Both the position numbers and the translations under genes were made by a program. A stretch of 58,613 nt of DNA from a virus. The DNA lies in IMG/VR virus record IMGVR_UViG_3300005527_003647, positions 1 to 58,613 of that record. One strand, given 5' to 3'. The notes under the pieces were generated by a model. That model was given only the letters and a program-made list of their open reading frames with translations. It ran no database searches and was not told the DNA's origin. How positions within the stretch are numbered: position 1 is the first letter of the stretch; every line of letters begins with the position of its first letter. Below, piece by piece: positions 20,930 through 43,673 of this stretch.

Positions 20930-22036
20930 ATGGTAGTAGATATAAACGTAACAAGTATCTGCAATTTAGCTTGCACATATTGTTCCGAAGGTTTTGAATG
21001 TGGACTATCTACCGAGTTTGAAGAAAATACTTCTTTGACATTAGATAATGTTGAAGAATTTATGGCTAAAATTTCTGATCCCAAAAAAGATGTTTATTTC
21101 TGGGGTGGTGAACCATTTGTTAATTGGGATTTTTGTAAAGGTGTCATAGAAAAATTTAAACATGATCCTGGTTTTTCTTTTTTCTTTTATACAAATGGAA
21201 CGTATTTAAAGAGATATTTAAAAGATTTGGTTAGAATTCACAATGAGATTCCCGGTAGATTAAAGTTGCAGGTTTCATATGATGGAAAGCCTGTAAACGA
21301 CATCGCCAGAGTGACTAAATCTGGTACTCCATCGTCAGCAATGGTCAAAGCAAACTATATTGCAGCTAAAGAAGCTGGATTGAATGTTTCACTGAAATCT
21401 GTACTAACGTCTGAAAATTTCCACTTAATCTATGAAGCCTTTTTGGATGTCATAGAAATGGATAAAAATTATTTTCCAACACCAGATTTATACAGCCAAT
21501 TGACAGAAGAAGAATTTATGCCTAAATTGGAAGTATTAAAGGATGGATTGAAGAAAATTGCTAAACATATTTACGAAAATAAATTACCTCCTGAGAAGTT
21601 TGGATGGTTCCAACAATCTAGAGCTCTATGTGCAGCAGGTATAAATTACGTAAGTGTTGATTTAAACGGCGATTTGAGTCCTTGCCATGGATGCATGTAC
21701 AAAGAATCGCATTCACATAAATTAGGAAATATTTTTAAAGTTGCAGATTTGGATCAGTTGATTGAAGAAAAATCTCAAATGTATAAGGATGCGTTGAAGA
21801 ATCAACCTTTAGATTGTATGAACTGTGACAGTCAATTCTGTATGAAATGTAATGCGGCAACTTATGAAAAATCAGAAAAAGAAACATATCTAGAAAAATG
21901 GAGTGATCATACAGCAAATTGGCAAGTCTGTAAAGTATTTAAGACAAACGAGATAGTACATCACGCATTAAGAACTGCACTAAAGAGTTATAAAAAGCCT
22001 GTAATTAAAATTCAGGCTGAACAGTGTACAGTATAA
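20930..22036 (+). CDS. Radical SAM/SPASM protein 1
   Basis: The cluster-binding motif CNLACTYC places Cys at residues 11, 15 and 18; the GGEP strand follows at 59-62. From about residue 234 the protein has a SPASM-type region: 'CAAGINYVSVDLNGDLSPC', HGC, then 'CMNCDSQFCMKC' and a late Cys in 'QVCKVF'. This layout binds extra 4Fe-4S clusters and is typical of peptide-modifying enzymes (anaerobic sulfatase maturase, PqqE, sactionine and ranthipeptide enzymes). Strong ribosome site. It is the first gene of the island and is followed 9 bases later by a second enzyme of the same class. Substrate unknown; the Cys-rich protein encoded 3.6 kb downstream is the obvious candidate. Confidence 0.88.
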   Translation: MVVDINVTSICNLACTYCSEGFECGLSTEFEENTSLTLDNVEEFMAKISDPKKDVYFWGGEPFVNWDFCKGVIEKFKHDPGFSFFFYTNGTYLKRYLKDLVRIHNEIPGRLKLQVSYDGKPVNDIARVTKSGTPSSAMVKANYIAAKEAGLNVSLKSVLTSENFHLIYEAFLDVIEMDKNYFPTPDLYSQLTEEEFMPKLEVLKDGLKKIAKHIYENKLPPEKFGWFQQSRALCAAGINYVSVDLNGDLSPCHGCMYKESHSHKLGNIFKVADLDQLIEEKSQMYKDALKNQPLDCMNCDSQFCMKCNAATYEKSEKETYLEKWSDHTANWQVCKVFKTNEIVHHALRTALKSYKKPVIKIQAEQCTV

Positions 22037-22045
22037 GGATAATAA

Positions 22046-23170
22046 ATGTTTACATTAGAAGTAAGTGTTACTGAAAAGTGTAATCTAGGTTGTCCGTATT
22101 GTTATGTGGCAAACAGACCAACTTGGATGACGAAAGAAGTTTTTGATCAGGGTATGAAAGACCTGCCAAAATTAATGCAAAGGTCCGGTGATAAAGATTA
22201 TCATGTAAGTTTTTTTGGTGGTGAACCTTTATTAAATTGGGACCTAATAACTCACGCTGTTCCTTATTTAAGATCGGATGATAAATGTAAAGGTATTAAT
22301 ATCATCACAAATTTAACGATGATTGATCAAGATAAAGCTAATTATTTGAGAAATAATGGTGTTGGCGTTTCTTGGTCTTTTGATGGTATGAGTTCTAATG
22401 AGAGTAGACCTTTACTTCCACTTTTGGAAAATACTAATCCAGAAACAGGCGAATTGTTTGATGGTATACTTTCGATGTATGAATATAAGAAAGATATCAT
22501 AAAGAATTTGACAAACGGATGTAAGGTCATGATATGGCCAGGAAATACAAAAGACATGAAAGAGAATTTTGAATTTCTCTTAGATTGGGGTATAGATCAT
22601 CCCGATTTTAGTATTGTTCGTGATGATGTTTGGACAGAAGATGATATAATACAGTTTAGATATGAATGTGAAAGACTTGCAGATTTTTGGATAGAAAAGA
22701 TAAAATCTGGTAAACCATGTTCAGTAGGATTTTTAAAACTAGCTATTTTAGATATTCTCTATGGTTTAGTGAAAGGTAAAAGACCTTTTGGTTGTTTTGC
22801 TGGAACTAATGGTGGAGTATTGATGAGTTCTGGGGAATTCTACCCTTGCGCTAGGTTTGCATCCAAAAAAATTATGAAAATGGATGAACAGTATAATTTT
22901 AGGTACTATCAAGACATTTTTAATCCAAAAAATTATGATAAATGTGAACCGTGTGATTTGAAACAGGTGTGTAATGCCGGTTGTACATATTCTCAAATTA
23001 TGAATGATAATAAACCATTAGATAGTATTTGTGAATTGTTCCACATATATTATGAACAAGCAATGCGAGTGGTAGATGAGTGTAAAGACGAAAGAGTTTT
23101 CCAAGATTTGGTTTTAAATTATATCGAAAATGTTGGTGTTGAAAATGAAGGTGTGGAGTGTAGGAACTAA
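22046..23170 (+). CDS. Radical SAM/SPASM protein 2
   Basis: Radical SAM motif CNLGCPYC at residues 12-19 and 'SFFGGEPLLNWD' near 55. The C-terminal region has a full SPASM signature: 'CFAGTNGGVLMSSGEFYPCA', then 'CEPCDLKQVCNAGC' and a closing Cys in 'ICELFHIYYEQA'. This spacing is close to that of anaerobic sulfatase-maturase and PqqE-type enzymes, which modify peptide or protein residues via a 5'-deoxyadenosyl radical. 374 residues, a usual length. Good 'aaggataataa' ribosome site. It differs from protein 1 well beyond the motifs, so this is not a recent duplication. Confidence 0.9.
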   Translation: MFTLEVSVTEKCNLGCPYCYVANRPTWMTKEVFDQGMKDLPKLMQRSGDKDYHVSFFGGEPLLNWDLITHAVPYLRSDDKCKGINIITNLTMIDQDKANYLRNNGVGVSWSFDGMSSNESRPLLPLLENTNPETGELFDGILSMYEYKKDIIKNLTNGCKVMIWPGNTKDMKENFEFLLDWGIDHPDFSIVRDDVWTEDDIIQFRYECERLADFWIEKIKSGKPCSVGFLKLAILDILYGLVKGKRPFGCFAGTNGGVLMSSGEFYPCARFASKKIMKMDEQYNFRYYQDIFNPKNYDKCEPCDLKQVCNAGCTYSQIMNDNKPLDSICELFHIYYEQAMRVVDECKDERVFQDLVLNYIENVGVENEGVECRN

Positions 23171-23171
23171 C

Positions 23172-24020
23172 ATGAAAATTGTTTCTTGCACCAGTCAAGA
23201 TAAAATTCTTAGAATTAACTGGCATATATTAAATTGGTGTAATTTAAAATGTTCCTACTGTAATGTAAAGGAACATTTGAGTTATGATTATAATGATAAT
23301 ACTCAAATTTCAAATAATTATAAATTGATTATAAGTAGATTAAAAACTATTTCTAAACCTTTTGAGATTTGTTTGACTGGTGGGGAACCAACATTACATC
23401 CCAATATCGAAGATATATTAAGTGGATTAAATGAAATTGAAAATTTAACTAAAATTTATTTTTTTACTAACTTAACTAGATCAGAAAATTTTTATAAAAA
23501 TATAAAAAGTTTTTCGAAAGTTACATATTACGCATCCTTTCACCCCGAATATCACAAAGAAGATTTTTTAGATAAGTGTAAAAATCTAAACTGTGAGGTT
23601 CATATAAGTATGATGCCTGAATATAAAAATTACATTTTAAAAATTATTGATAAGTGTAAGTTGGAGGATATAAAATTTACATTAAATTTTTTAAGAGACA
23701 CAAAATATTATTCAAGTAATTTAGAAGAAGATTTTTTCGTAGAAGCTTCTACTGCTGAATCTATGATTGATATGGATGTTTTATATGATAATGGCTTTCG
23801 AGAAAATACTACAAATTTAAGATTATTATACGATAAAAAAAATAATTTCAAAGGCTATAAATGTTTACCGGAATCTTTTCAAATAGAATTAAATAATGTA
23901 GTTAAAAATGTTTGCACTAACGAAATTATGCCATTATCTTTAAAAGATATTACGAAAAAGGTTATTTGTCCAAAAGAAGTTTGTGAAGGTGGACTTATGA
24001 TGTATCCTAAGGAAATTTAA
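23172..24020 (+). CDS. Radical SAM protein 3 (short C-terminal Cys region)
   Basis: I chose ATG 23172, just after the upstream stop with an 'aggaa' ribosome site, rather than an in-frame ATG 42 bases upstream that would overlap the previous gene. Motif CNLKCSYC at residues 23-30; 'LTGGEPTLHP' near 74. The C-terminal part has 'GYKC', a Cys in 'NVCTNEIM' and 'VICPKEVCEGG', an arrangement that also appears in radical SAM protein 6 (KGWNC..., FCMPK, VCPHKACNCDG). The two are thus a paralogous pair, perhaps binding an auxiliary cluster. Substrate unknown. Confidence 0.85.
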   Translation: MKIVSCTSQDKILRINWHILNWCNLKCSYCNVKEHLSYDYNDNTQISNNYKLIISRLKTISKPFEICLTGGEPTLHPNIEDILSGLNEIENLTKIYFFTNLTRSENFYKNIKSFSKVTYYASFHPEYHKEDFLDKCKNLNCEVHISMMPEYKNYILKIIDKCKLEDIKFTLNFLRDTKYYSSNLEEDFFVEASTAESMIDMDVLYDNGFRENTTNLRLLYDKKNNFKGYKCLPESFQIELNNVVKNVCTNEIMPLSLKDITKKVICPKEVCEGGLMMYPKEI

Positions 24021-24349
24021 TGAAGAAAAATTTTAAAAGTATTGTATCTATACCTATTAAAGTTGAGATGCAACCAGTTGAACATCAAAGCAATAAAGTT
24101 TTGACTGTTGATGATTTGTCGAAACAAATAGAAGAAGCTAAAAAGGGAAAAGCCAAAGTCGATAGTAAGTATGTAGGATTTGAACTGACTGAGAGAGGAC
24201 ATTTATTCGAATATAAATTTGATTATGTTAAATTTTTGGACAATATGTCATTCATAATCAAAACGGCAAAACAGCGTAAAGAAATGAATCCTAATAATGT
24301 CTATACAATGGATAAAACTAAAAGTGCTAGACGAAAAAAAGAAATATGA
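24020..24349 (+). CDS. Small basic protein of unknown function between radical SAM genes (109 aa)
   Basis: No family recognised. It is Lys-rich, with a middle segment 'VDDLSKQIEEAKKGKAKV', an aromatic stretch 'YVGFELTERGHLFEYKFDYV' and a basic tail ending RRKKEI. It has no cysteines, so it is unlikely to be a thioether-type substrate. It shares one base with radical SAM 3 and four (ATGA) with radical SAM 4, so all three are translationally coupled. A small partner between two radical SAM genes could be a recognition or chaperone protein of the PqqD kind, but I see no diagnostic pattern. Confidence 0.6.
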   Translation: MKKNFKSIVSIPIKVEMQPVEHQSNKVLTVDDLSKQIEEAKKGKAKVDSKYVGFELTERGHLFEYKFDYVKFLDNMSFIIKTAKQRKEMNPNNVYTMDKTKSARRKKEI

Positions 24350-25239
24350 ACGCCGAAACTTTCAAAAAAAAGTATCCTCAAATAAATTTTTATGTAGGAC
24401 ATGAAACGGATAAAACTGTAACTAAAGATTCGGGAGTAAATGTATTATATTTCACAAATAAATGTAATTTAGCTTGTACATATTGTTATGAAGATTTGCC
24501 TGGTCGCCCTCCACAAATTTTGTCTAAAGAAGATATTAAAAAAAGTATCGATAGAGTTATAGAAAGAGAAGATCCCAATAGTCAAACATTATTTGTTCTT
24601 TTTGGTGGAGAAGCTACTATGGAATGGGATAATGTTTGTTATGCCATGAATTATGCCTATACAAAAAAGAAAAATGTTCATTTTAATTTAAACACAAATG
24701 GCATAAGATACCTAAAACAAAGTTTTATAGAGGAAACAAAAAACAATTTTTTTTATAAAAAAAACTTGTTAAGTATAGACGTTAGTTTTGACGGTATAGG
24801 AAATTCGGATAGAGTCACACACGGCGGCAAGGATTCAACTAATTTAATGATCCAAGTTTTCAGAAATTTGAGAAAAAACGCAATGAAATTTAGGATAAGA
24901 TACACCATACATCACAAAAACGTTCATAATTGCTATGAAGATATGTCCAATATTATTAGATATTTTAAACCAACCCGTCTTATAACATCCGTTGCGTGGG
25001 AAACTCTCAATAAAATTCAAATTGACTTGCTCCAAAACATGAAAGAAAGTCTCAGGAAAGATTGGATAAATAGGATAATTGATGTTCCAGTTTGTGAGTT
25101 ATTTTGTGACATGTGTGATGGATGTGGTGAGAGAAAGGAAGTAAAAACTTATTTTACTGACGAGGGTAATGTAACCACATATGGTAATTATGAGAACTCC
25201 CCGAAATTTCATGATTTTAAAGAAAAGGTAATAATATGA
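24346..25239 (+). CDS. Radical SAM protein 4
   Basis: An approximately 35-residue N-terminal extension precedes CNLACTYC (Cys 40, 44, 47), with 'FVLFGGEATMEWD' near residue 88. 'LLSIDVSFDGIGNSDRVTHG' is the substrate/SAM-barrel strand common in peptide-modifying members. The C-terminus is short but Cys-dense: 'VCELFCDMCDGCGERKEV', followed by a 'YFTDEGNVTTYGN' hairpin, so a truncated SPASM or twitch domain is likely. 297 residues. Coupled by ATGA overlaps to the genes on both sides, and only 1.3 kb upstream of the Cys-rich repeat tail. Confidence 0.86.
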   Translation: MNAETFKKKYPQINFYVGHETDKTVTKDSGVNVLYFTNKCNLACTYCYEDLPGRPPQILSKEDIKKSIDRVIEREDPNSQTLFVLFGGEATMEWDNVCYAMNYAYTKKKNVHFNLNTNGIRYLKQSFIEETKNNFFYKKNLLSIDVSFDGIGNSDRVTHGGKDSTNLMIQVFRNLRKNAMKFRIRYTIHHKNVHNCYEDMSNIIRYFKPTRLITSVAWETLNKIQIDLLQNMKESLRKDWINRIIDVPVCELFCDMCDGCGERKEVKTYFTDEGNVTTYGNYENSPKFHDFKEKVII

Positions 25240-25629: not shown

Positions 25630-26238
25630 ATGGCTTTAGGTAAAATGTTTGACACTACTCTTGGAGTAGGTACTAACACAACTCCTGCTGGTGAACATAA
25701 AAGGCTATCAATAACTATACAAGGAACTGTTGGTAGTAATGCAGTGAATTATGATCTTGCGAATGTTGTAGCTGGAGAGGATTTAATAACTAGATCGTTT
25801 TTTCAATCGCTGCTTGATAAAGCAAAAGAAGAAAATACGAGAAGGGGAGGCAGCGCCACTAAAGGTTCGTTATCAACAACAAACATTAGAGCTGCCGACT
25901 TTAATAATATCCGAGCACTTTTTGCTGTTGCCGATTCTAGGACAAATCAAGTTTATAATGATTGGTCTGGTGCAAATGCTAATTTGCCTAATGGTCCGAC
26001 AGTAAATAGTCCCACAATAACAACCTTTCCTACTACTGCTGCACCAACTGGTGTTCCAGCAGCAGTTACCACAGATCCAGCAACTCAAATTAGAGCTACA
26101 ATTCTGAATTCTCTCATTAATGCTTTGAATTCTGCTGGGCAAGTTTGCACCTGTAATTGTAATTATTGTACTTGTAATTGCAATTATTGTACATGTAACT
26201 GTAATTACGCATGTACCTGCAACTGTAATTACTCCTAA
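25630..26238 (+). CDS. Cys-rich C-terminal repeat protein, candidate RiPP-like or metal-binding substrate
   Basis: 202 residues. The first about 170 contain no cysteine and look like a folded, possibly structural protein: a Gly/Thr-rich start, then 'RLSITIQGTVG', a helical 'SFFQSLLDKAKEENTRRGG', 'AADFNNIRALFAVADSR', and a Pro/Thr-rich linker ('PTVNSPTITTFPTTAAP'). The last 30 residues (173-202) are four copies of CTCNCNY, the last preceded by Ala and followed by Ser, giving 12 cysteines. Four radical SAM genes precede it and four follow. A long leader-like domain plus a repeated Cys core suggests modification by those enzymes. Alternatives are a metallothionein-like tail (CxCxC and CxxC spacings) or disulfide cross-linking of a virion protein. 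Ribosome site 'aaagga' upstream. Confidence 0.75.
   Translation: MALGKMFDTTLGVGTNTTPAGEHKRLSITIQGTVGSNAVNYDLANVVAGEDLITRSFFQSLLDKAKEENTRRGGSATKGSLSTTNIRAADFNNIRALFAVADSRTNQVYNDWSGANANLPNGPTVNSPTITTFPTTAAPTGVPAAVTTDPATQIRATILNSLINALNSAGQVCTCNCNYCTCNCNYCTCNCNYACTCNCNYS
26146..26235 (+). repeat. Four coding heptapeptide repeats CTCNCNY
   Basis: Units begin at 26146, 26167, 26188 and 26212 (an Ala codon precedes the fourth; a Ser codon follows it). Codons for the same residue differ between copies: Cys is TGC or TGT, Thr is ACC, ACT or ACA, and Asn is AAT or AAC, while the peptide is unchanged. Cys spacing is CxCxCxxC through the array. Confidence 0.95.
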
Positions 26239-26285
26239 TTAAAAATATTATGTTTTTTCAACTAAATCATTTAGAAGAAACCAAT

Positions 26286-26711
26286 ATGTCTTACATAAGA
26301 CATTTTAATCATGGAATAAGATTGGGATCTTGGTTATTTTTGTGTTCCATCATTTTTTTAATTTATTGTCTTTTCTCTTTAAAATTTTTAGAAAACTTTG
26401 TGATAGCACGAATAAACACAATGTATCATGGATTAATGTTGCGATGGTTTGAAGATGAAACATTTAATCGTGGAAAACCAGAAAAAGATGTTTTAGAAGA
26501 AAAGAAATATAAAAAGCAGTATGTAAAATTGATCGAAGATGGAATGATAAATCCTTTCAATAAAGTTAAAATATTTAATGGACTGTTAATTGCATCCATT
26601 ACTAGTATAACACATTCTTTTATACCACAAATATTTGTGCATCATGCTGCCACCAATGTAATAAGATTATATTTTAATTATAAAATAATGGAGAAATTAA
26701 ATGAAAAATGA
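26286..26711 (+). CDS. Small membrane protein of unknown function
   Basis: From ATG 26286 the protein has 141 residues; an ATG at 26250 would add 12, but the internal start has an 'agaagaaa' ribosome site five bases upstream. A strongly hydrophobic segment 'GSWLFLCSIIFLIYCLFSLKFL' near residues 12-33 is a membrane helix. A second apolar stretch 'IFNGLLIASITSITHSFIPQ' near 98-117 may be another. Between them is a charged region (EKDVLEEKKYKKQYVKLIED). No holin, transporter or peptidase motif is visible. It directly follows the Cys-rich protein, so export or anchoring of a product is possible but unproven. Confidence 0.55.
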   Translation: MSYIRHFNHGIRLGSWLFLCSIIFLIYCLFSLKFLENFVIARINTMYHGLMLRWFEDETFNRGKPEKDVLEEKKYKKQYVKLIEDGMINPFNKVKIFNGLLIASITSITHSFIPQIFVHHAATNVIRLYFNYKIMEKLNEK

Positions 26712-27105
26712 TAGAGTTGAAATTGAAGGTATTGATGCGAATACTTATGCTGGAAAAGCAATTAATGCATGTAAGTTAAAAGCAAGAGGAATTTTTGGAG
26801 ATGAACTTTTAACTTTTAAACTTTTGGATTTTGTAAGTTTTTTAATGTTAAATAATGAATTTACGTCAAAAGGTTATTTTATTAGTGAACATAATAGGGA
26901 AGAAATTTATATAAAAATTATAGAAACTGGTGATATACAATTAATAAATGATTTGGAAAAATATATTAATCTTAGAGATTCTATAAAAGAATTACAAAGA
27001 AAAAAAGATGAATTTTACGATATTATTGAAAAATTAAATAATTTATCAAACTTGAATGATGAAACGAGTGTTAATGAAATTGTAGAGTCTTATCTAAGGA
27101 GATAA
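26701..27105 (+). CDS. Unknown protein (134 aa) with C-terminal coiled coil
   Basis: No family recognised. The N-terminal two thirds look alpha/beta or winged-helix-like ('KLKARGIFGDELLTFKLLDF', 'IYIKIIETGDIQLINDLEKY'), and residues about 90-130 form an amphipathic coiled coil ('DSIKELQRKKDEFYDIIEKL'). It overlaps the membrane-protein gene by 11 bases. A peptide-binding role for such a small protein in a radical SAM cluster is conceivable, but there is no diagnostic motif. Confidence 0.55.
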   Translation: MKNDRVEIEGIDANTYAGKAINACKLKARGIFGDELLTFKLLDFVSFLMLNNEFTSKGYFISEHNREEIYIKIIETGDIQLINDLEKYINLRDSIKELQRKKDEFYDIIEKLNNLSNLNDETSVNEIVESYLRR

Positions 27106-28104: not shown

Positions 28105-28983
28105 GTGTCTTTAGTAAATCTGAGAAACTATGATTTAGTTATAACTACTTCATTTGGTTTCAAATTTGGAATTTGTGGTCATTTATTTGAAATGATTGAA
28201 TATTATTGGGCTATAAAAAATTGGACAAATCTAAATCCTTGTATACTATTGTCCGATGGTACTACAATAGACGAATTTAATATAGCTTTAAACACGAAAT
28301 ATGATAATCTAGTTGTTGAAAATTTAATATACCATCCTTTTCCAAAACTATTATTGTCAAAAAATTTATTGATAGTTGACGGATCTTCAAGACTTGATAA
28401 TTCGGAAATATATACAGATAATTTTTTTCTATTCAGATGTCATGAAAAAAATTATGACTTTTATATAAACAATAAAGCGCAATGTCACTTATTTCAAGAT
28501 TTTGAAATATATGATGATATTCCTAAAAAAATAAATGTTTTTGATTATAAGAAAAAATTATTATATTCAAAATTTAAAAAAATAAATGATGATGTAGAAA
28601 ATTCTGTAATGTTTTATTTGACAGATGTTAGTAGATTTATGTCTGAAGAAACAATAACTGAAATTTCCAATAAATATTCTTTCAACAACACAGTAGTATT
28701 TACAAATAAACCAGAACTTTATACAAAAATAAAAACATATAAAGTTCCAGTCCCAGACATGTGGAATAAATTTTCTACATATGTTTATACTAAATTACCT
28801 GGCAAAAAAGATTGTTCCAATAGATTTATTTTAGAGTGTATGCACTATGATAAAGAAGTTGTTTATGATATAGATTATTATGATAAAGCTTTAGAAATTA
28901 GAAAAAAGGATGGAATAAAAAATACATCTTTAGAACAAGGTGATTTTTTTATCAATTATATCAATGAACAAATTAAGTGTTAA
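28105..28983 (+). CDS. Unknown protein, possibly glycosyltransferase-like (GTG start)
   Basis: It begins with GTG four bases after the previous stop; no clear ribosome site, so coupling is likely. The N-terminal half has alternating hydrophobic strands ('YDLVITTSFGFKFGICGHLF', 'NLLIVDGSSRL'). The C-terminal half has 'NNTVVFTNKPELYTKIKTYK' and 'CSNRFILECMHYDKEVVYD', which resembles the sugar-nucleotide-binding 'R..LEC' region of GT-B glycosyltransferases. I give this only as a possibility. 292 residues, no membrane segment. Confidence 0.45.
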   Translation: MSLVNLRNYDLVITTSFGFKFGICGHLFEMIEYYWAIKNWTNLNPCILLSDGTTIDEFNIALNTKYDNLVVENLIYHPFPKLLLSKNLLIVDGSSRLDNSEIYTDNFFLFRCHEKNYDFYINNKAQCHLFQDFEIYDDIPKKINVFDYKKKLLYSKFKKINDDVENSVMFYLTDVSRFMSEETITEISNKYSFNNTVVFTNKPELYTKIKTYKVPVPDMWNKFSTYVYTKLPGKKDCSNRFILECMHYDKEVVYDIDYYDKALEIRKKDGIKNTSLEQGDFFINYINEQIKC

Positions 28984-29956
28984 AAAAATACTGATAGATT
29001 ATGATAGACCTATTAACAATAGAGCTAAATTAGATACTGGTAAACTCTGTAATTATAAATGTGAATTTTGTTACTATAAAAATAGTTTGTCTGAGAGAGA
29101 TGAACTTGATAAAATCTACAAAAGAATAGATTATTTACTTGACTATGGCATAAAAGAAATCGATCTTAGTGGTGGTGAAAGTAGTGTAGAACCGAATTGG
29201 TTTAATATATTAAATTATTGCCAAAATAAATTTGATAGAATTAGTTGCCTTAGTCACGGAGGTAAATTTAGTGATAAAGAATTTATTCAAAAAAGTTTCG
29301 ACTTAGGTTTAAGAGAGATACTCTTTAGTCTACATTGTACGGATGAAAGTGTTCATGATAAAATTGTAGGCAAAAAAGGAGCTTTTAAAAATTTAATTAA
29401 AGCTATTGAGAACTCCCACCGTTTAAATATTGAAGTTAGATTGAACACAACTGTATATCATGAAAACTACAATAAAATAGACACTTCTTTTATAAAATCT
29501 TTAAACCCCACCCAAGTTAATTTTATTGCTCTCAATTATTGGAGAGACAATAAAGATTTTTATCCTATTGATTACGGAACAATTTGTTCCTATGTTTCAA
29601 ATTATATTGATGACCTTAAGGACTCAACCGAAGTTAATGCTAGATATTTTCCTTATTGTTTTATGCCATCAAAAGAAAAATATATAAAAAACCATTATCA
29701 TCATATATATGACTTTAAAGATTGGAATAAAGCGGTTTATAGTGGAACATTAGACACTAAAAAAAATTATACGCACAATGAAAAAGTAGAACATTCTTTC
29801 TCTGAAGCGGAACGAATGAGAATTTATAGTTACTTTAAAACCGAAGAATGTACAAAGTGTAAATATTTTTATATATGTGATGGTATAGAAAATGAACTTA
29901 AAGATAAAGTTAGTCCAAATCCTGTTTTTGGAGAAAAGATAAGATTAATATGGTAA
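28964..29956 (+). CDS. Radical SAM protein 5
   Basis: ATG 28964 is preferred over a GTG at 28940, which only extends the overlap with the previous gene; both overlap it. Motif CNYKCEFC (Cys 29, 33, 36), 'EIDLSGGESSVEPNW' near residue 70, and 'ILFSLHCTDESVHDKIVGKK' with a MoaA/PqqE-like barrel strand. The C-terminus has 'CTKCKYFYICDGIE', a CxxCx5C group that could bind an auxiliary cluster or complete a twitch domain. 330 residues. It is followed by a GT2 glycosyltransferase overlapping it by 7 bases. Confidence 0.85.
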   Translation: MNKLSVKKILIDYDRPINNRAKLDTGKLCNYKCEFCYYKNSLSERDELDKIYKRIDYLLDYGIKEIDLSGGESSVEPNWFNILNYCQNKFDRISCLSHGGKFSDKEFIQKSFDLGLREILFSLHCTDESVHDKIVGKKGAFKNLIKAIENSHRLNIEVRLNTTVYHENYNKIDTSFIKSLNPTQVNFIALNYWRDNKDFYPIDYGTICSYVSNYIDDLKDSTEVNARYFPYCFMPSKEKYIKNHYHHIYDFKDWNKAVYSGTLDTKKNYTHNEKVEHSFSEAERMRIYSYFKTEECTKCKYFYICDGIENELKDKVSPNPVFGEKIRLIW

Positions 29957-30636
29957 ACATTGATTTATCTATTTTAATACTTACGCATAATAGGCCTAAA
30001 CTTTTTGAAAGAAGTTTAAATTCAATTTTATCATATTTAACTCCAAAAATAGAAGTAATTGTAAATAATGATAGTTCTGATATAAAAGAAATTGAAAATA
30101 CTAATGTAAATTATTATTATGAAAAATTTAATAATATATCAAGTGTATATGAATTTTTATTTCTTAAGTCTAAAGGAAAATATATTTATTTTTTGGAAGA
30201 TGATGACTATTTGAGGAAGCAATTTTTCGAACAAAGTTTTGATGCTGATATTATAGCTGGAAATTATTGTCCTACCTATAAGCCAGATAATACTTTTGAA
30301 ATAATAAATTTGTTTAAAGATGAAGTTATACACGATAAATGTGAATTTTTAAATAAATTAAACTTAGAACATTTACAATTAGGACAATTTATATTTAAAA
30401 GAAGTGTAATTGAAGATTTTTATTTTGGAATAGATAACAATATTCATAATGATATTAGACTGGTCTATCACGCTTCACAAAAGTCGAAGAAATTTAGAAT
30501 GACCAATAAAGTATTTTACTACCAAACAAAAGATGGTAATGATAATATTTCTTTTCCTGGAACAAAAAAAAGTATAAACGTAACGGCATCTTTGGACTTT
30601 TTAAAAAATTATGAAATACAAAATACAACATCATAA
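29950..30636 (+). CDS. Family 2 glycosyltransferase
   Basis: The GT-A start 'LSILILTHNRPKLFERSLNS' and the metal-binding 'YFLEDDDYLRKQFF' (DxD-type, near residues 76-82) are typical of GT2 enzymes, which move a sugar from a nucleotide donor to an acceptor. 228 residues, so only the catalytic domain with a short C-terminal acceptor region ('HNDIRLVYHASQKSKKFRMT'). No membrane helices. It overlaps a radical SAM gene at each end (7 and 26 bases), linking glycosylation and radical chemistry in one transcript. Confidence 0.83.
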   Translation: MVNIDLSILILTHNRPKLFERSLNSILSYLTPKIEVIVNNDSSDIKEIENTNVNYYYEKFNNISSVYEFLFLKSKGKYIYFLEDDDYLRKQFFEQSFDADIIAGNYCPTYKPDNTFEIINLFKDEVIHDKCEFLNKLNLEHLQLGQFIFKRSVIEDFYFGIDNNIHNDIRLVYHASQKSKKFRMTNKVFYYQTKDGNDNISFPGTKKSINVTASLDFLKNYEIQNTTS

Positions 30637-31513
30637 AGATCAAGATCCGGATCATATTAATATTCATTGGGATAGTCTTACTATTTGTCAACTCAAGTGT
30701 TCTTATTGTTACGCTAGAAATGAGTATGGTAAAGAATGGGGTAAACTATCTAGTAAAAAAACAATTGATGCTGTATTGGATGCTTTAAATCGAAGTAGTT
30801 TGAATTTTAATTTGGGTTTGTTGGGTGGCGAACCAACTTTAGGTCCTTATTATTACCATATTTTAGACTCAATCAGTAAAATGGAGAAATTTAATTGGGT
30901 TTATGTTGTAACAAATGCTGAAAAGGATTTGACACTTCACCCACATTATGATAAACTGGCTTTCCTATTCAGTTACCACCCGGCCGATTGTACGGATGAA
31001 AATAGATTTCTCAATAATATACATCATATGCTGGGTAGAGGTTATAAATGTAAAGTGAATGTTATGCTTCACCATGATAAAAGTTTATGGCCAAAAATAA
31101 AAAATATGTTTGAAACTTTGGAAAAAATACCCAATTTAAAAATACATCCACACTTTTTATATGGTAATAGTATCACTAAATTGTTTAACTATAGAAAAGA
31201 TTTTTGGGAATATTTTTCTTTTTTAGAGTCGTATGAAAAAGAATTAAAATATGATGATGATTTTTTTAATGATTATATTATATTTAGGGATAAATTAACC
31301 AATTTTAAAGGATGGAATTGTTACAACAATAATTATGAAATTGACGTTAGAGGTAACGTTGTTAAATTTTGTATGCCAAAAACTGATAATATTAATCTCA
31401 TAAGCAATAGAGATTTTTTTAAAAATATAACCAAAACTGTTCCTATGGTTTGTCCACATAAAGCTTGCAATTGTGATGGTCTTTTAAAACAATTAAAAAT
31501 TAAAAATGAGTAA
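30611..31513 (+). CDS. Radical SAM protein 6, paralog of radical SAM 3
   Basis: Motif CQLKCSYC (Cys 26, 30, 33); 'LGLLGGEPTLGPYYYHIL' near residue 76. The C-terminus carries 'GWNC', a Cys in 'KFCMPK' and 'VCPHKACNCDG', the same order as in protein 3. The barrel strand 'LAFLFSYHPADCTDENRFLN' parallels 'YYASFHPEYHKEDFLDKC' of protein 3. The pair therefore probably share chemistry on different substrates or positions. 300 residues. It overlaps the next gene by 8 bases. Confidence 0.86.
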   Translation: MKYKIQHHKDQDPDHINIHWDSLTICQLKCSYCYARNEYGKEWGKLSSKKTIDAVLDALNRSSLNFNLGLLGGEPTLGPYYYHILDSISKMEKFNWVYVVTNAEKDLTLHPHYDKLAFLFSYHPADCTDENRFLNNIHHMLGRGYKCKVNVMLHHDKSLWPKIKNMFETLEKIPNLKIHPHFLYGNSITKLFNYRKDFWEYFSFLESYEKELKYDDDFFNDYIIFRDKLTNFKGWNCYNNNYEIDVRGNVVKFCMPKTDNINLISNRDFFKNITKTVPMVCPHKACNCDGLLKQLKIKNE

Positions 31514-32264
31514 GATTGTTGAATGGGAAATTACACTTAAATGTAATTATAAATGTGAGTATTGTACAAATTTGGATCCTAGTATGCGACCAGAATTGAC
31601 TGAAGAAAAAATAAAAGATTTTATAAAAAAATTAGGTGAGACATATCCCGGTGTAGAAATATTTATTTTTGGAGGGGAACCATTTGTTCATCCAAAAATA
31701 AATTTTATAATAAAAACATTTAATGAATATAATATTCCATTTGTTATACAGACGAACTTCAGTAGTTATAGTAGAAAAACAATTCAAAAAATAAAAGATC
31801 CATTTAAAATTAATATAAGTGTTCATCCTACAGAAACGTCTATAGAAGATATAGTTCAGGGATTAAAAGATACTAAAGTTAATATTAAAACTATAGATGT
31901 GATGTACACCGGTAAAGAAGCTATAGATTATTATTTTGCAGTAAAAAAATCTTTAGACCACGACAATTTATTTTTAACTCCAGTAACAGACTTTGGTGAT
32001 GGTCATAGTGATACTTTACTCGCACAATATCTTTCTTTAAAAAACAATTTAATGTATCGAAAAATAATTAAATTTGAAGATATTGAAAGACTAGGTAAAC
32101 AACGAAGTGATCTTTGGATAGATTCTAATTTTAACACTTTTGGAAAACCTTGTTTATATAAAGATAAATACTTCCTCTACTCACCCAACTTAGATTTGTA
32201 TAACTGTTGTTATAGAATCAAAGTCAACAAATTGTGCCCGAAAACAAAATGTTTTCTAATGTAA
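31506..32264 (+). CDS. Radical SAM protein 7 (short)
   Basis: Motif CNYKCEYC (Cys 13, 17, 20) very close to the N-terminus; 'IFIFGGEPFVHPKINFII' near residue 53; 'INISVHPTETSIEDIVQGL'. The C-terminal end has 'CLYKDKYFLYSPNLDLYNCC' and 'CPKTKC', a compact Cys group likely to hold an extra cluster. At 252 residues it is the shortest of the eight. One base separates it from the first U32-like gene, and that pairing is repeated in reverse with radical SAM 8 directly after it. Confidence 0.85.
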   Translation: MSKIVEWEITLKCNYKCEYCTNLDPSMRPELTEEKIKDFIKKLGETYPGVEIFIFGGEPFVHPKINFIIKTFNEYNIPFVIQTNFSSYSRKTIQKIKDPFKINISVHPTETSIEDIVQGLKDTKVNIKTIDVMYTGKEAIDYYFAVKKSLDHDNLFLTPVTDFGDGHSDTLLAQYLSLKNNLMYRKIIKFEDIERLGKQRSDLWIDSNFNTFGKPCLYKDKYFLYSPNLDLYNCCYRIKVNKLCPKTKCFLM

Positions 32265-32265
32265 T

Positions 32266-33099
32266 ATGAGATATCTTTTAGCCGGAGCTTTTAGTAAGTT
32301 TGTTCCCTTAATAAAATTTTTAAGTCAAAACATAGTCGATTCTAAAGAGTTGGTGGTTTATGACGGCATTAATAAATGTAAATGGAATGGAGGTAGAATA
32401 AACAGGGATGTTTATTATAAAGATAATTTGATAGAATATTATTATAGTAAGAATATCAAGATTGCTTTAACATTTAGTAATCATAATATTGATTTGACTG
32501 ACGAATTGGGAAATCATTTACTGGAGAAATTTCACAAAAAAGGAAATGCTTTAATTATTGTGAATGATGACTTGAGAAAATATGTTAGAGAAAAATTTCC
32601 ATTATACGATTTAATTTACAGTATTACTGGAATGGGACTATTAAACATACCTTTACAAGATAAAGATATAGAATTTTATAAAAAATTGGAAGAAAATTAT
32701 GATTGGATCGTTCCTAGGTTTGAACACATATTTGATCCTAGGTCTAACGAACTGGACAAAACAAAGTGGGAAGTAATGCTGAATGATACTTGTGTTTATG
32801 GATGTAAACATTGGGATGCACACTTCAAGGCAATTGCAGATGAAAATACCGCCGGTAGACCGTATAGTAAGGAAGTGGAAGAATGTTGGCTTCCTAAGTT
32901 TGATTTCAACAAAGATAGTAAATATGAATGTATGGATATAAAACCATTAGCGATGGAAAAATTAATAAAAGATGGAGTTAGGAGTTTTAAAATTACTGGT
33001 AGAGAAATGAAAGATGATGAATACTATGGAGAATTAATGAGATTCGTTTTAAATAGCAAATCTGTTAATATTGTAAAATGGCCAACTGGGAAAAAATAA
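32266..33099 (+). CDS. U32-peptidase-like Fe-S protein 1
   Basis: I recognise the pattern of the U32/UbiU-UbiV-like TIM-barrel family: an early 'CKWNGGRINRDV', 'IALTFSNHNIDLTDELGNHL', 'ALIIVNDDLRKYVREKFP', 'YSITGMG', 'MLNDTCVYGCKHWDAHF' and a terminal 'GVRSFKITGRE'. Cys 38, 176, 180 and 222 are matched by cysteines in the second copy 3 kb downstream and sit much like the four cluster ligands of UbiV. Family members hydroxylate or modify substrates, or act as Fe-S proteins; 'peptidase' is a historical label. Its gene lies between two radical SAM genes. Function here unknown. Confidence 0.62.
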   Translation: MRYLLAGAFSKFVPLIKFLSQNIVDSKELVVYDGINKCKWNGGRINRDVYYKDNLIEYYYSKNIKIALTFSNHNIDLTDELGNHLLEKFHKKGNALIIVNDDLRKYVREKFPLYDLIYSITGMGLLNIPLQDKDIEFYKKLEENYDWIVPRFEHIFDPRSNELDKTKWEVMLNDTCVYGCKHWDAHFKAIADENTAGRPYSKEVEECWLPKFDFNKDSKYECMDIKPLAMEKLIKDGVRSFKITGREMKDDEYYGELMRFVLNSKSVNIVKWPTGKK

Positions 33100-34151
33100 A
33101 AGTAGTTAGAAAAAAAGAGGACATGCAAGTTGGGCAAATAAAGCCTAAATGTTCTTACAAGGTTTTACAATTAAACAACAGTTCAATAATGGAGTCTAAG
33201 TATGTCGTTACATTTAGAATTACTGAAGCGTGCGACCTCAAATGTAATTATTGTCACTGGCATAGTGGTAAACATTACAAATACGAAGATATTATAAAAA
33301 CGATTGATAAGATATTTGAATTCTTACAAAAAAATAAATTAAAGTCTGTTCTGTTTTACTATCATGGTGGAGAACCAACAACACATCCTAAGATAGTTGA
33401 TATTCTGAAGTATATTCATGATAAGGGAAAACAAACAAATATTATTGCGTCTAATGAGATGCAAACCAATTTGACTTTAAAAGAATCAAAGTTAAAAGAA
33501 ATACTACCATATTGTGACCTTTTTAATGTAAGCTTTCATTACTTGGAATTAAAAAGATTAAAAAAATTTAATAATTTTAATCACAATTGGAATCTTTTAA
33601 AAGAAATGAATGTGGAGATTCATAATTTAGATATCATGTTGGAGAATGTGGAGAGAACTCATTTATTTTATAATGGAGAAATTATTGAAATATATCCAGA
33701 TGAGTTCTATAGTAGTATTGTAGATTATCTGAAATATGATAAAATTGTTAATAGTGAAATGATATATGGATTTTGTCACTACAAATACCCTCCAGAAATC
33801 GAAGCTAAACATATGGAGTTTTATAAAAAATATAATAAAACAGAACAGAAATATCTTATAGATGATGTTGAGTATACCACGAATGATTTATTTAAATTCG
33901 GTATAGATGCTAGAGGTTGGCATTGTGCAGCCGGTAATGAAAGTATAACAATTAATGGTGATGGTAATGTTTTTAATTGTGGTATTCATATGACAAACTA
34001 CATACGAGAAAGTTCTCCAGAAAAAGCATATACAAATTTAGTACATGATGAAATTGGGGTAACAAAATTAACTTTATTATATAAAACTGGCACAATATGC
34101 CGTTGGGATTATTGTGGCGGCGATTTTTACTTAAGTAGAAAACCCAAATGA
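33078..34151 (+). CDS. Radical SAM/SPASM-like protein 8
   Basis: The N-terminal extension of about 50 residues is unusual; other in-frame ATGs lie at residues 16 and 38, but the first start is kept because of the overlap style of the island. Motif CDLKCNYC (Cys 52, 56, 59), 'FYYHGGEPTTHPKIVDIL' near residue 92, and C-terminal 'GWHCAAGNESITINGDGNVF' with NCG, then 'CRWDYCGGDF'. The 'I.I..DG.V..C' core is typical of SPASM/twitch regions. 357 residues, 22-base overlap with the U32-like gene. Confidence 0.84.
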   Translation: MANWEKIKVVRKKEDMQVGQIKPKCSYKVLQLNNSSIMESKYVVTFRITEACDLKCNYCHWHSGKHYKYEDIIKTIDKIFEFLQKNKLKSVLFYYHGGEPTTHPKIVDILKYIHDKGKQTNIIASNEMQTNLTLKESKLKEILPYCDLFNVSFHYLELKRLKKFNNFNHNWNLLKEMNVEIHNLDIMLENVERTHLFYNGEIIEIYPDEFYSSIVDYLKYDKIVNSEMIYGFCHYKYPPEIEAKHMEFYKKYNKTEQKYLIDDVEYTTNDLFKFGIDARGWHCAAGNESITINGDGNVFNCGIHMTNYIRESSPEKAYTNLVHDEIGVTKLTLLYKTGTICRWDYCGGDFYLSRKPK

Positions 34152-36999: not shown

Positions 37000-37679
37000 A
37001 AAAAGAAATTTTAGAATATTCTTTTGAAAAAGATGTTGCTCATATACCTTCAGCTTTATCAATGTCGGACTATATTGAGGAGTTGTTTAGTGAAAAATTA
37101 GTAACACCTGACGATAAAATAATAATAGGAAAACCTTTTGGAGCTCAAGCCTATTATATAATATGGAAAAAAATGGGATATTTGGATGATATACATAAAT
37201 TAAGTCCTGTTTTAAAAATGAGTGAAGTTGATTTTGTAGATTTTTCTGAAGAAACTATGGGAGATTCATTGGGTATAGCAGCAGGCATAGCTCTAACTAC
37301 AGAAAAATTAGTTTGGGTAAATCTATCTGATGCAACTTTACAAATGGGACCAACACTTGAAGCAATACAGTTTATAGGACAAAATTGTTTAAAGAATGTT
37401 TTAGTAACAGTTGATTATAATGGAACTCAAGTAACGGGGTATACAAAAGATATAATTAATACTGATCCTATCGTAGACATGTTTAGAGGATATAATTGGG
37501 AAGTATTTCATGATTTGAACAATTTTAGTATTGGTAAAAAGCCTAAAGTTTTTATTATGAAAACAATTAAAGGTAATGGAATACCAAGCATGGAAAAGGA
37601 TATAAAAAAATGGCATTACAGGAAAATACAATCACAAGAAGAATTACAGTCGTTGGTGCAGGAACTTCAGGTTATTTAA
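36996..37679 (+). CDS. Transketolase-like N-terminal (thiamine diphosphate domain) subunit
   Basis: Matches the first half of transketolase: 'AHIPSALSMSDYIEELF', 'GDSLGIAAGIAL', then the TPP/Mg motif region 'VNLSDATLQMGPTLEA' with Asp 112, and 'TVDYNGTQVTGY' with Asn 142 (30 residues apart, as in GDG-x-N motifs), and the closing 'KGNGIPSMEKDIKKWHYRK'. The normal GDGE is changed to SDAT: Asp is kept, but the first Gly and the Glu are lost. 227 residues, shorter than free-standing N-subunits (about 270). The partner half lies 1.2 kb downstream. Its last 70 bases overlap the halogenase gene out of frame. Confidence 0.82.
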   Translation: MKKEILEYSFEKDVAHIPSALSMSDYIEELFSEKLVTPDDKIIIGKPFGAQAYYIIWKKMGYLDDIHKLSPVLKMSEVDFVDFSEETMGDSLGIAAGIALTTEKLVWVNLSDATLQMGPTLEAIQFIGQNCLKNVLVTVDYNGTQVTGYTKDIINTDPIVDMFRGYNWEVFHDLNNFSIGKKPKVFIMKTIKGNGIPSMEKDIKKWHYRKIQSQEELQSLVQELQVI

Positions 37680-38953
37680 CTGTTTTATATTTTTGCAAAA
37701 AATATCCTGATATGCAGGTGACATGGATTTATCCAGAAGTCAACCAGCCCATAGGTGTTGGTGAAGCAACAGTACCACAAGTTCAAAGATTTTTAGCTGA
37801 GTTGGGAGTATCTGTTCAAGATATGATATTACATTGTAATGCAAATTTAAAAATTGGAGCAATGTTTGAAAATTGGTCACCAACACAAAAATCTTTTTTT
37901 CATCCATTTGGATCCACAGATGAAAATTGTTTGGATTTGGAGTGGTACTTAAAAAATAATCAAATTCCACCAAATATTTTAGAAGCTTATCCCGAAACAT
38001 TAGAATATATGTTGGAGAATGATGATTTTCCAGATTTTGCAACAAATTTTGATGTAAGAGAATTGTGTAAGTACTTGGATAAAATTTTTGAAAATTTTAA
38101 AAATTTAAAAGTAATACGTAAAACTATAACAGATGTTGATGAAATTGAAGATGATCACATCATAGATGCCACAGGATTCTCCAAAACATTAATCAATAAA
38201 ACTGATAAAGAAAATTTCAAAAGTATTAAACACATTATACCTAATAATAAAGCTTTTGTTTATCGAGCTGAATATTCCGATAAAGAGAATCAACAACAAC
38301 CTTATACAACAATTACCGCGGTGACGCATGGTTGGATATGGACTATACCATTGAAAGATGTTATAACATTTGGTCACGTACATGATGATCGTTACGACAC
38401 TAAACAAGAATACATAAATTTTGTGGAGTCTAGACTTGGTTACAAAATAGACGAATCTAAAATTGTTGAAGTTAAAATGATTACTGGTAGGAATATAAAA
38501 CATTTTAGAAAACAAGGAAACAAGTCGATTTATTCAATTGGTTTAAGTTCTTATTTTATTGAACCTATAGAAGCTACAGGATTATATCTTGCAACTTATG
38601 GTATTAAATTATTAGATCGTCTGTTAAAAAATGAAATAACCGTGGATGAGTATAACAATGATTATAACAGAGAATTTGATGCTGTTACAGACTTTATTAC
38701 TACATATTATAAATTTTCAAAAAACTCTAATGAATATTGGGATCATTTTAAAAAATTAAATATAGAAACTCATAGGAAAAATAATATTTTTCCGGCCAGA
38801 AGTTGGAATTTAATATTATCTGGAATGGGACAAGAAGAAAAAAAATACAAAATAAAAGCAGAACGTATAATAAAAATTAGAAAAAATAATGTAAAATATA
38901 GTGAATGGTTAAAAGAATTTCATGAGAAAAACTCTACATCAATATCTAAGTAA
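37610..38953 (+). CDS. Flavin-dependent (tryptophan) halogenase family protein 1
   Basis: All family signs are present: FAD loop GAGTSG at residues 16-21; 'QPIGVGEATVP' at 46-56; the catalytic Lys in 'NANLKIGAMFENW' (Lys 81, near Lys 79 of PrnA/RebH); the halogenase signature 'HGWIWTIPL' (GWxWxIP); and 'YFIEPIEATGLYL', where the conserved Glu lies. These enzymes use FADH2 and oxygen to form HOCl and chlorinate or brominate an aromatic ring. The reductase is not encoded here and would come from the host. 447 residues. ATG 37610 has an 'aagga' ribosome site; the upstream overlap is 70 bases. Confidence 0.87.
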   Translation: MALQENTITRRITVVGAGTSGYLTVLYFCKKYPDMQVTWIYPEVNQPIGVGEATVPQVQRFLAELGVSVQDMILHCNANLKIGAMFENWSPTQKSFFHPFGSTDENCLDLEWYLKNNQIPPNILEAYPETLEYMLENDDFPDFATNFDVRELCKYLDKIFENFKNLKVIRKTITDVDEIEDDHIIDATGFSKTLINKTDKENFKSIKHIIPNNKAFVYRAEYSDKENQQQPYTTITAVTHGWIWTIPLKDVITFGHVHDDRYDTKQEYINFVESRLGYKIDESKIVEVKMITGRNIKHFRKQGNKSIYSIGLSSYFIEPIEATGLYLATYGIKLLDRLLKNEITVDEYNNDYNREFDAVTDFITTYYKFSKNSNEYWDHFKKLNIETHRKNNIFPARSWNLILSGMGQEEKKYKIKAERIIKIRKNNVKYSEWLKEFHEKNSTSISK

Positions 38954-39401: not shown

Positions 39402-39982
39402 CTGGACACACGGGATTTATTGGTAGAAATTTGGTCGAAGAATTTAAACGCCAAGGCTATAATCCAATTTTAATAGACAAAAATTTTACACCAGTTAAGT
39501 GTGATAGGATATATCATTTGGCTTGTCCTGCAACTACATATCACATTACAAATAATACTATTAGTGTTATGGATGCTATATTAGATTTAACTCGCAAAGC
39601 AATGAATATATGTAGTGATGCTTTATTTGTAAATGCTAGTTCTTTTGGCGCTGCTGATATTAATGAAAGTAAGCAAGGTGGATATAATGTTGCTAAAAGA
39701 TGTATGGAAATATATTTGTCGCATTCTAAAATTAATTATATAAATTATAGAATACCTTCCGTTTATGGTCAAGACGCCAGTACCGATTCCTTTATTAAAA
39801 GGTGTGTTTTAGGTACTGCTTACAAACCCACAAACTCCTCACAGATTTGGCCGATATCTCATGTTGATGATGTCGTTGAAGCTTTAATTAATCTTTCAGA
39901 AATTAAAATTGAATATATTACTTTGGGTGAAATATACGAACAATTTACTTCGGGAAAAAGAAATTTGATAAAACATGAATAA
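39386..39982 (+). CDS. NAD-dependent epimerase/dehydratase-like protein (198 aa)
   Basis: ATG 39386 is used because it gives the typical 'MEIAVTGHTGFIGRNLVEEF' start; a TTG 15 bases upstream would only add five residues. GxxGFIG dinucleotide loop, 'DRIYHLACPATTYHI', 'NASSFGAADI' and 'YNVAKRCMEIYL' (Tyr-x3-Lys) give a short-chain dehydrogenase, and 'PSVYGQDASTD' and 'PISHVDDVVEAL' are typical sugar-epimerase strands. It is shorter than usual at 198 residues. It overlaps the second halogenase gene by eight bases. Confidence 0.72.
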   Translation: MEIAVTGHTGFIGRNLVEEFKRQGYNPILIDKNFTPVKCDRIYHLACPATTYHITNNTISVMDAILDLTRKAMNICSDALFVNASSFGAADINESKQGGYNVAKRCMEIYLSHSKINYINYRIPSVYGQDASTDSFIKRCVLGTAYKPTNSSQIWPISHVDDVVEALINLSEIKIEYITLGEIYEQFTSGKRNLIKHE

Positions 39983-43358: not shown

Positions 43359-43673
43359 ATGCTTAATATAACTGAATCTGCTGTAAATGAAATCAAACAA
43401 TATTTAGACGATGAAAACAAATACTTGAGGGTCTATGTTGAGGGTGGTGGATGTTCTGGTTTTAAATATGGTTTTGATTTTGAAGAATCTGTTTCCGAAG
43501 ATGATTTTGAAATTCCTTTAGATGGTTTTTCAATTCTTGTAGACTCTTTCAGTATGCAATATTTGGAAACCGCAACTTTGAATTTCAAAGAAGATATTAT
43601 GGGACACACTTTTACTATAGAAAACCCTAATGCACAGACGACCTGTGGCTGTGGAAGTAGCTTTTCGGTATAG
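43359..43673 (+). CDS. A-type iron-sulfur carrier (IscA/ErpA/HesB family)
   Basis: From ATG 43359 ('aggag' eight bases upstream; 12 upstream codons left out) the 104-residue protein reads 'MLNITESAVNEIKQYLDDE', 'LRVYVEGGGCSGFKYGFDFE' (Cys 32) and 'NPNAQTTCGCGSSFSV' (Cys 96 and 98). These three cysteines are the invariant cluster ligands of the family, which passes 2Fe-2S/4Fe-4S clusters to apo-enzymes. With eight radical SAM proteins and two U32-like Fe-S proteins upstream, a role in supplying clusters to them is a natural inference. The fibre operon follows. Confidence 0.9.
   Translation: MLNITESAVNEIKQYLDDENKYLRVYVEGGGCSGFKYGFDFEESVSEDDFEIPLDGFSILVDSFSMQYLETATLNFKEDIMGHTFTIENPNAQTTCGCGSSFSV

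Follow-up and report, generated by a model that had tools for sequence, protein, structure and literature searches.

Radical SAM (rSAM) enzymes of the SPASM type modify peptides and proteins; known ranthipeptides carry links from Cys to Asp, Thr or Asn, and QhpD, an rSAM/SPASM enzyme, places Cys-Asp and Cys-Glu thioethers into a protein subunit and not into a free peptide (PMC8326336). Among phages, the Campylobacter viruses CP220 and CPt10 encode 11 and 12 rSAM proteins, numbers that were called highly unusual (Timms et al., 2010; PMC2853527). The same report described a 21-bp repeat in CPT_0180/CPt10_1891 as the sole intragenic one, treated the repeat and the rSAM genes separately in the sections devoted to them, and suggested boosted host metabolism (PMC2853527). 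The locus described here combines a Cys-rich repeat with rSAM genes. It lies in a 58.6-kb virus record, referred to below as the window, which encodes a T4-like baseplate (wedge and hub matches in PHROGs).

Just beyond a large fibre-like gene, the cassette consists, in order, of a dehydrogenase-like gene, rSAM A, B and D, the small gene h, rSAM C, the small gene H, the gene for the Cys-tailed CTC protein, a DUF6356 gene and a gene for a 134-aa protein (Table 1). The gene run continues downstream of the 134-aa gene with four further rSAM genes and with glycosyltransferase, 2OG oxygenase, tryptophan-halogenase-type, epimerase and PIG-L deacetylase genes. Protein H has no recognised family match. 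A role for it as an RRE-type leader binder was considered and is unsupported, its predicted model being all-helical with a pTM of 0.40. A profile of H weakly matches (E 0.033) the longer C protein of one relative, L120, which hints at a fusion.

Table 1. Features of the window, with positions on the strand presented and the matches that identify them.
Feature	Position	Strand	Evidence or remark
Fibre-like protein, 1070 aa	16911..20123	+	phrog_19602 tail fiber protein; just upstream of cassette
rSAM family A, SPASM type	20930..22036	+	PF04055 8.8e-16; SPASM 21.6 bits (cut-off 21.5)
rSAM family B, SPASM-type Cys set	22046..23170	+	PF04055 3.7e-12; NF047865 (PapB) 2.4e-38
rSAM D	23130..24020	+	phrog_13987; PF04055 over cut-off
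Small protein h, 109 aa	24020..24349	+	in 15/34 representative loci
rSAM family C	24346..25239	+	PF04055 3.1e-12; CxxxCxxC plus 4 invariant C-terminal Cys
Small helical protein H, 130 aa	25236..25628	+	directly upstream of CTC gene; in 14/34 representative loci
CTC protein, 202 aa	25630..26238	+	Cys-free residues 1-172, Cys tail 173-202
Four CTCNCNY heptads	26146..26232	+	one Ala codon between third and fourth
153-aa protein, DUF6356	26250..26711	+	PF19883 5.3e-9
134-aa protein, unknown function	26701..27105	+	phrog_25260; 26 ORFs in 25/34 representative loci
rSAM E, HxsC/AlbA-like	28940..29956 (searched from 28970)	+	TIGR03977 2.3e-19, 69.4 bits (cut-off 267.9)
rSAM F	30611..31513	+	NCBIfam rSAM models, under curated cut-off
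rSAM G	31506..32264	+	NCBIfam rSAM models, under curated cut-off
rSAM H (distinct from small helical protein H)	33078..34151	+	NCBIfam rSAM models, under curated cut-off
Tryptophan-halogenase-like gene, tail locus	37610..38953		PF04820 6.1e-65
Tryptophan-halogenase-like gene, tail locus	39975..41240		similar by eye
Fe-S cluster carrier, IscA/HesB type	43362..43673	+	PF01521 1.9e-20

The initial annotation had counted four rSAM genes on either side of the CTC gene and had called the first two SPASM types, and both statements hold. All four upstream genes (A, B, D and C) match PF04055 above the cut-off; the four downstream (E to H) match several rSAM models, none above its curated cut-off. A and B each combine the CxxxCxxC set with the seven C-terminal Cys of SPASM enzymes. 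In family A the former is kept in 28/30 sequences and the seven SPASM positions in 29-30/30; in family B the figures are 27/27 and 26-27/27. The Pfam SPASM model just reaches its cut-off in A only. C has only four extra C-terminal Cys and not seven, and these are kept in 25/25 sequences. SPASM enzymes like A and B modify peptides and proteins. The closest NCBIfam model to A, B and C is the PapB ranthipeptide maturase (NF047865), at 78.5, 132.2 and 79.9 bits, respectively, all under the curated cut-off of 340. The SCIFF maturase model TIGR03974 gave 87.4 bits for B, 55.1 for C and 49.7 for A and missed its cut-off of 425, and the His-Xaa-Ser models (TIGR03977/TIGR03978) also fell short, with E as in Table 1 and B at 66.2 bits for a cut-off of 370. 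With these scores, and with CTCNCNY as the repeat, its earlier placement outside the His-Xaa-Ser and SCIFF classes stands. B further matches the QhpD model TIGR03906 (6.4e-22, 78 bits, cut-off 453). The best PDB match of both A and B is 5wgg, which we take to be CteB, a SCIFF maturase. Since A and B start at the barrel, with CxxxCxxC at residues 11-19, they have no N-terminal RRE domain, and none is evident in A, B or C. Downstream, E to H lie amid glycosyltransferase, sugar-type and other enzyme genes and may serve something else.

The CTC protein contains no Cys in its first 172 residues and 12 in its last 30, as had been described. Its tail reads (CTCNCNY)3-A-CTCNCNY-S: the four heptads reported earlier are present, but the fourth is offset by one Ala and a terminal Ser is added. 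The Pro/Thr-rich linker is likewise real, but it does not directly precede the tail, from which it is separated by a predicted helix (residues 156-170). The heptad pattern TGYNNNTGYNNNTGYAAYTAY matches four times in the whole window, each time inside the CTC gene, and not once across 100 dinucleotide shuffles of the window. At the protein level the four heptads are identical, and neighbouring copies differ at 3, 4 and 2 codons, nine in total, all synonymously. Compared with the tail of a relative, L008, over 29 codons, there are 13 synonymous differences and one non-synonymous. Among 19 aligned relatives (171 pairs), mean pairwise identity reaches 90.2% in the tail but 29.2% in the leader, which makes the tail by far the better conserved part of the protein. 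Chance or a repeat artefact as the source of the heptads is ruled out by the shuffles, the synonymous-only differences and the conservation of the tail. The codon pattern, with neighbouring copies differing synonymously only, indicates that the heptad repeat is under selection at the protein level. Pfam and NCBIfam searches with the window protein gave no match, and its only match in PHROGs, phrog_26958 (function unknown), covers the tail. In an AlphaFold model the tail has a pLDDT of 33-38, which is uninformative for or against modification. Nothing below E 0.001 came from a fold search of the model against PDB and BFVD, a negative that carries little weight because the tail is modelled at low confidence.

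The CTC tail is coupled to three rSAM families, A, B and C. We assembled 54 motif-bearing viral contigs, 43 from a DNA-pattern scan, L022-L025 and seven from a second scan, and found PF04055 matches at E 0.001 or better in 49 (43/47 plus 6/7). Control contigs were those found with the baseplate wedge protein of the window (77 loci). Among the 31 control records of at least 10 kb that were tested, five had PF04055 matches (four over cut-off) and none had the heptad motif. Controls were shorter than motif contigs (median 18 kb vs 67 kb); when only contigs of at least 35 kb are compared, PF04055 is present in 38/39 motif-bearing contigs (from the first set of 47) vs 3/8 controls. Densities were 338 matches in 4.24 Mb of motif contigs vs 12 in 0.81 Mb of controls, and nine of those 12 sit on two contigs that carry a second kind of Cys-tailed protein, described below. 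Widespread CTC proteins without rSAM genes nearby, the outcome that the initial annotation had set against its own proposal, were not found.

Co-occurrence in related phages, which had been named as a check, usually involves the same three families close to the CTC gene. Profiles seeded with the rSAM proteins of the window assigned ORFs in 34 representative loci, from which they were also built; on two outside rSAM-bearing loci they scored 52.5 bits at best. Within 4 kb of the CTC gene, A was present in 29, B in 26 and C in 26 of 30 representative loci, all three in 24 and one or more in all 30, a set in which some members are not independent (L022 and L024 are close, and L078 and L018 are both Campylobacter phages). 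Excluded from it were L117, with no upstream sequence, and L115, L116 and L119, marine-lineage contigs that end near the gene; none of the four shows A, B or C. Where the trio is incomplete, L112 has C alone nearby and the Campylobacter phages have A alone within 4 kb. The orders A-B-h-C-H-CTC and B-x-C-A-CTC are frequent; of the representative loci, the window and L085 are the only two with rSAM D placed between B and C. In L093 an ORF that by eye is IscA/HesB-like lies between B and C, four places before the CTC gene. Scanned in reverse, close relatives of C occurred on contigs with a CTC gene in 11/11 loci, and those of B in 14/15. The remaining one, L090, holds a CTC remnant (12665-13087) with a leader and an S74 end, no heptads and a broken frame. 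It is close to L092 and lacks the heptads and part of the leader, through either assembly collapse or a real deletion. Five of the 54 motif contigs have no rSAM gene. Four come from a single marine lineage; their contigs stop 0-1.6 kb beyond the CTC gene and, in the three examined, have 14-19 kb without rSAM genes on its other side. The fifth, L212, encodes a CTC protein with a long heptad array (4720-5475) on a 43.8-kb contig without rSAM matches.

Two other readings bear on this coupling. One is that the CTC and rSAM genes merely share a hypervariable host-recognition cluster, in which the rSAM enzymes build sugars or other host-surface changes. Pelagimyophage host-recognition clusters do hold rSAM cassettes together with glycosyltransferases (PMC7029224), and the window has its own glycosyltransferase, epimerase, PIG-L deacetylase, halogenase and 2OG oxygenase genes downstream. 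Against it, A, B and C alone consistently accompany the CTC gene, E to H doing so in part of the lineages only, and phages of the genus Firehammervirus keep A and B even with B placed tens of kb away from the CTC gene in the circular record. We regard this reading as highly improbable. The other holds that the heptads bind Zn, Fe or an Fe-S cluster, or form disulfides linking the three chains of a fibre, and carry no covalent rSAM modification, with the rSAM enzymes serving another product of the locus. It draws on the composition of the tail, in which CxCxC with N/D/Q and Tyr/His is metallothionein-like, on the IscA-type carrier encoded in the window, and on the T4 gp37 fibre tip, which binds iron via HxH motifs (PMC11705849); the sequence of the window CTC protein contains no HxH motif. 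This reading does not account for the association of the tail with three particular rSAM families, of which two have all seven SPASM Cys, or for the recurrence of the same three across lineages whose leaders share ~29% identity, and we consider it unlikely.

CTC loci were collected by a protein-based scan (32 loci) and by DNA-pattern scans (43 and 55 stretches), and nearly all are metagenomic fragments. Two broad-pattern matches, L217 and L225, are small ORFs on contigs without rSAM genes; they were judged spurious and left out. In bacterial and archaeal genomes, a two-heptad pattern found one 3-kb contig, with rSAM genes upstream. The heptads of 40 distinct proteins (n = 316), in which the Cys positions are fixed by the search pattern, have Thr at position 2 in 238 cases and Asn at position 6 in 291; position 4 is Asn in 156, Asp in 123 and Gln in 25, and position 7 is Tyr in 272, His in 22 and Phe in 15. 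By motif count, a CTC protein has 3 to 28 copies. Some loci contain two to four tandem CTC genes with different leaders and similar tails (L009:8045-10606, L013:9501-11555, L019:9596-10737, L028:9683-10828). Within open-licence PMC papers, CTCNCNY and its variants match only DNA sequence in phage Mu, and no paper on rSAM-modified phage tails was found.

The family is missing from nearly all sequenced isolates. The PHROGs match led to Firehammervirus, in which a 534-aa Campylobacter phage protein carries the heptads mid-protein. This protein was found in 15/50,697 annotated phage records, all of them Firehammervirus. Matches to B (28 records) and A (19 records) were headed by the same 15 phages, at 37% and 29% identity, respectively, the weaker ones being human-gut phage records, and the 134-aa protein matched only these 15 phages; one of them, IBB_35, is deposited in contigs, so that different contig records were matched by different proteins. 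A tblastn search of the phage records with the CTC protein of the window gave no match. The baseplate wedge of the window matches 2327 records, and the narrow Firehammervirus profile is therefore not just phage kinship; as all 15 records belong to one genus, they amount to a single evolutionary observation. The legend to the CP220 virion gel names 11 proteins, none of which is CPT_0180 (PMC2853527), and the CP21 paper does not mention the CTC protein under the terms searched (PMC4546147). In CP21 (HE815464.1, ~78893-79964), the annotation divides an A-type rSAM gene between two ORFs, CP21_110 and CP21_111.

Many relatives of the CTC protein have a fibre-type anatomy. In 25/41 CTC proteins the heptad array is followed by SDxxLK, the motif with which the self-cleaving S74 fibre chaperone begins; in 21/41 it stands directly after the last heptad. 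The S74 model PF13884 matches 7/19 members of one alignment of relatives (A1) and 0/15 of a more divergent one (A2). Of the 25 proteins with SDxxLK, 17 end within 16 residues, and in 5/5 loci tested the next ORF matches the remainder of PF13884 (L010:10582-10860, L020:10554-10826, L033:2751-3047, L057:1117-1410, L221:3160-3456); the S74 domain is thus split over two genes. A programmed frameshift into S74 was considered for L010, L020, L033 and L059 and rejected, because the second ORF begins at a separate start codon downstream of the stop and the offset between frames varies, as expected of two genes. One separate S74 chaperone could possibly act in trans for several CTC genes. The window protein lacks PF13884 and, with L008, L106 and L114, ends where S74 would begin, plus one Ser in its own case. 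In T5 pb1, cleavage occurs in front of Ser1264, whose partner is Lys1269 (PMC4690869), and SDxxLK has the same Ser-to-Lys spacing. By analogy, CTC relatives would be cleaved at this site, and since SDxxLK follows the heptads, cleavage there would leave ...CTCNCNY as the mature C-terminus.

This anatomy weighs on a further reading, in which the product is a secreted or intracellular RiPP-like peptide, active in superinfection exclusion or against competitors, whose core is cut off its leader and which is no part of the virion. The leader/core-like layout and the rSAM/SPASM maturases do resemble RiPP clusters. An S74 start after the heptads in 25/41 proteins fits a fibre instead, and the putative core is better conserved than the leader; a free peptide is thus, in our judgement, a very doubtful product. 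S74 cleavage, should it take place, would take away the C-terminal side of the protein and not the leader. The initial annotation had suggested exposure on a virion protein. The SDxxLK motifs, the PF13884 matches and the position beside baseplate and fibre genes support this, and from them we infer the presence of the protein in virions.

A second class of Cys tail came to light in the two rSAM-rich control contigs: at the same place in each, an rSAM gene is directly followed by the gene for a protein with the C-terminus (CHxS)3-RGRR (L210:10005-10547, L211:9917-10543; further loci, L228-L307). A CHxS/RGR pattern scan returned at least 120 stretches. All 91 distinct proteins (from 80 loci listed plus the two controls) end in RGRR; the search pattern prescribed CHxS and RGR but left the final residue and the stop free. 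These proteins have 100-310 aa, with the tail at the very C-terminus, and mostly follow an rSAM gene directly. Among the loci listed, rSAM genes lie within 2.5 kb upstream in 39/41 single-gene loci with at least 1.5 kb of upstream sequence and in 2/20 tandem or short loci; one of the latter, L228, has rSAM-like genes downstream. A group of Burkholderia phages encodes a relative of one CHxS protein over residues 1-170, short of the tail. In open-licence PMC papers, CHxS strings matched unrelated words only. The (CHxS)3-RGRR class follows the same logic as the CTC tail. Two results go beyond the initial annotation: there are at least two classes of Cys tail, this one included, and cultured Campylobacter phages carry the CTC version.

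That the CTC/rSAM module is functional we consider very likely. On the sequence evidence, the best explanation of the whole is probably that phage rSAM enzymes modify the CTC tail on a tail-fibre-type protein; given the coupling, the selection and the fibre-type anatomy, the most economical reading has A, B and C modifying the heptads. The phage would then encode a module for protein modification, with the CTC gene product as its substrate and also as its end product. Synthesis of a small protein of tail-fibre type, with a C-terminal array of CTC[N/D/Q]CN[Y/H/F] heptads, would come first. A and B (SPASM type) and C (one extra Cys cluster), often assisted by small helper proteins, would next modify these heptads inside the infected cell, ahead of virion assembly. 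The likeliest chemistry would be thioether links from heptad Cys to nearby residues, with the Asn at position 6 as the best candidate; we give a thioether type of modification an even chance. Such links would turn the array into a stiff polycyclic rod. Modification would take place under low oxygen and be followed by trimer folding, with S74 where present. Relatives with S74 would cleave themselves before SDxxLK, leave the heptads as the mature C-terminal tip and then be assembled; the CTC genes of the window, L008, L106 and L114 simply end at the cleavage point. The tip may serve host contact or penetration, and an array so highly conserved fits a structural role better than a fast-evolving receptor site.

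We more tentatively propose, at slightly worse than an even chance, a general strategy of tailed phages in which rSAM-matured, polycyclic and cross-linked tips of small tail proteins, CTCNCNY or (CHxS)3-RGRR, are exposed at the fibre end after S74 self-cleavage and exchanged as cassettes of host-recognition loci, which would explain many rSAM genes called auxiliary metabolic. To our knowledge, no virus cross-links its own virion parts by rSAM chemistry. If the proposed modification is correct, viruses do so, and phage rSAM genes that mostly go by the label auxiliary metabolic would gain a role, those 11-12 of CP220/CPt10 among them. The locus would also be a source of enzymes for modifying densely repeated Cys within a full-length protein. 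As Firehammervirus phages are in culture, a direct test is feasible.

The gene layout is that of a RiPP system, with an encoded precursor beside dedicated modifying enzymes whose action is putative. Like the PapB ranthipeptide maturases and CteB, A and B are SPASM-type rSAM enzymes beside a Cys-rich repeated substrate; unlike them, the window has three enzymes instead of one, no N-terminal RRE domain, scores far below the cut-offs and, as substrate, a fibre-type phage protein with CTCNCNY heptads. QhpD shares the whole-protein substrate, and B matches its model, but at 78 vs 453 bits, and QhpD acts on another substrate and is bacterial rather than viral. The His-Xaa-Ser (HxsB/HxsC) and CXXX-repeat systems also pair several rSAM enzymes with one repeat-bearing substrate, and E is nearest to HxsC; their repeats differ, however, scores fall below the cut-offs, and the CHxS tails are closer to them in letters only. 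With S74 fibres such as T5 pb1 and the K1F endosialidase, most CTC relatives that have SDxxLK share its position directly after the repeat, but the window protein has no S74, several relatives split the domain over two ORFs, and CTC relatives have Cys heptads in place of the usual fibre tip. The T4 gp37 HxH tip likewise presents alternating ligand-type residues (PMC11705849), whereas the CTC tail has Cys, not His, and is accompanied by rSAM enzymes. With the rSAM-rich phages CP220 and CPt10, finally, the window has in common the CTC protein (CPT_0180/CPt10_1891), rSAM A and B, and the 134-aa protein.
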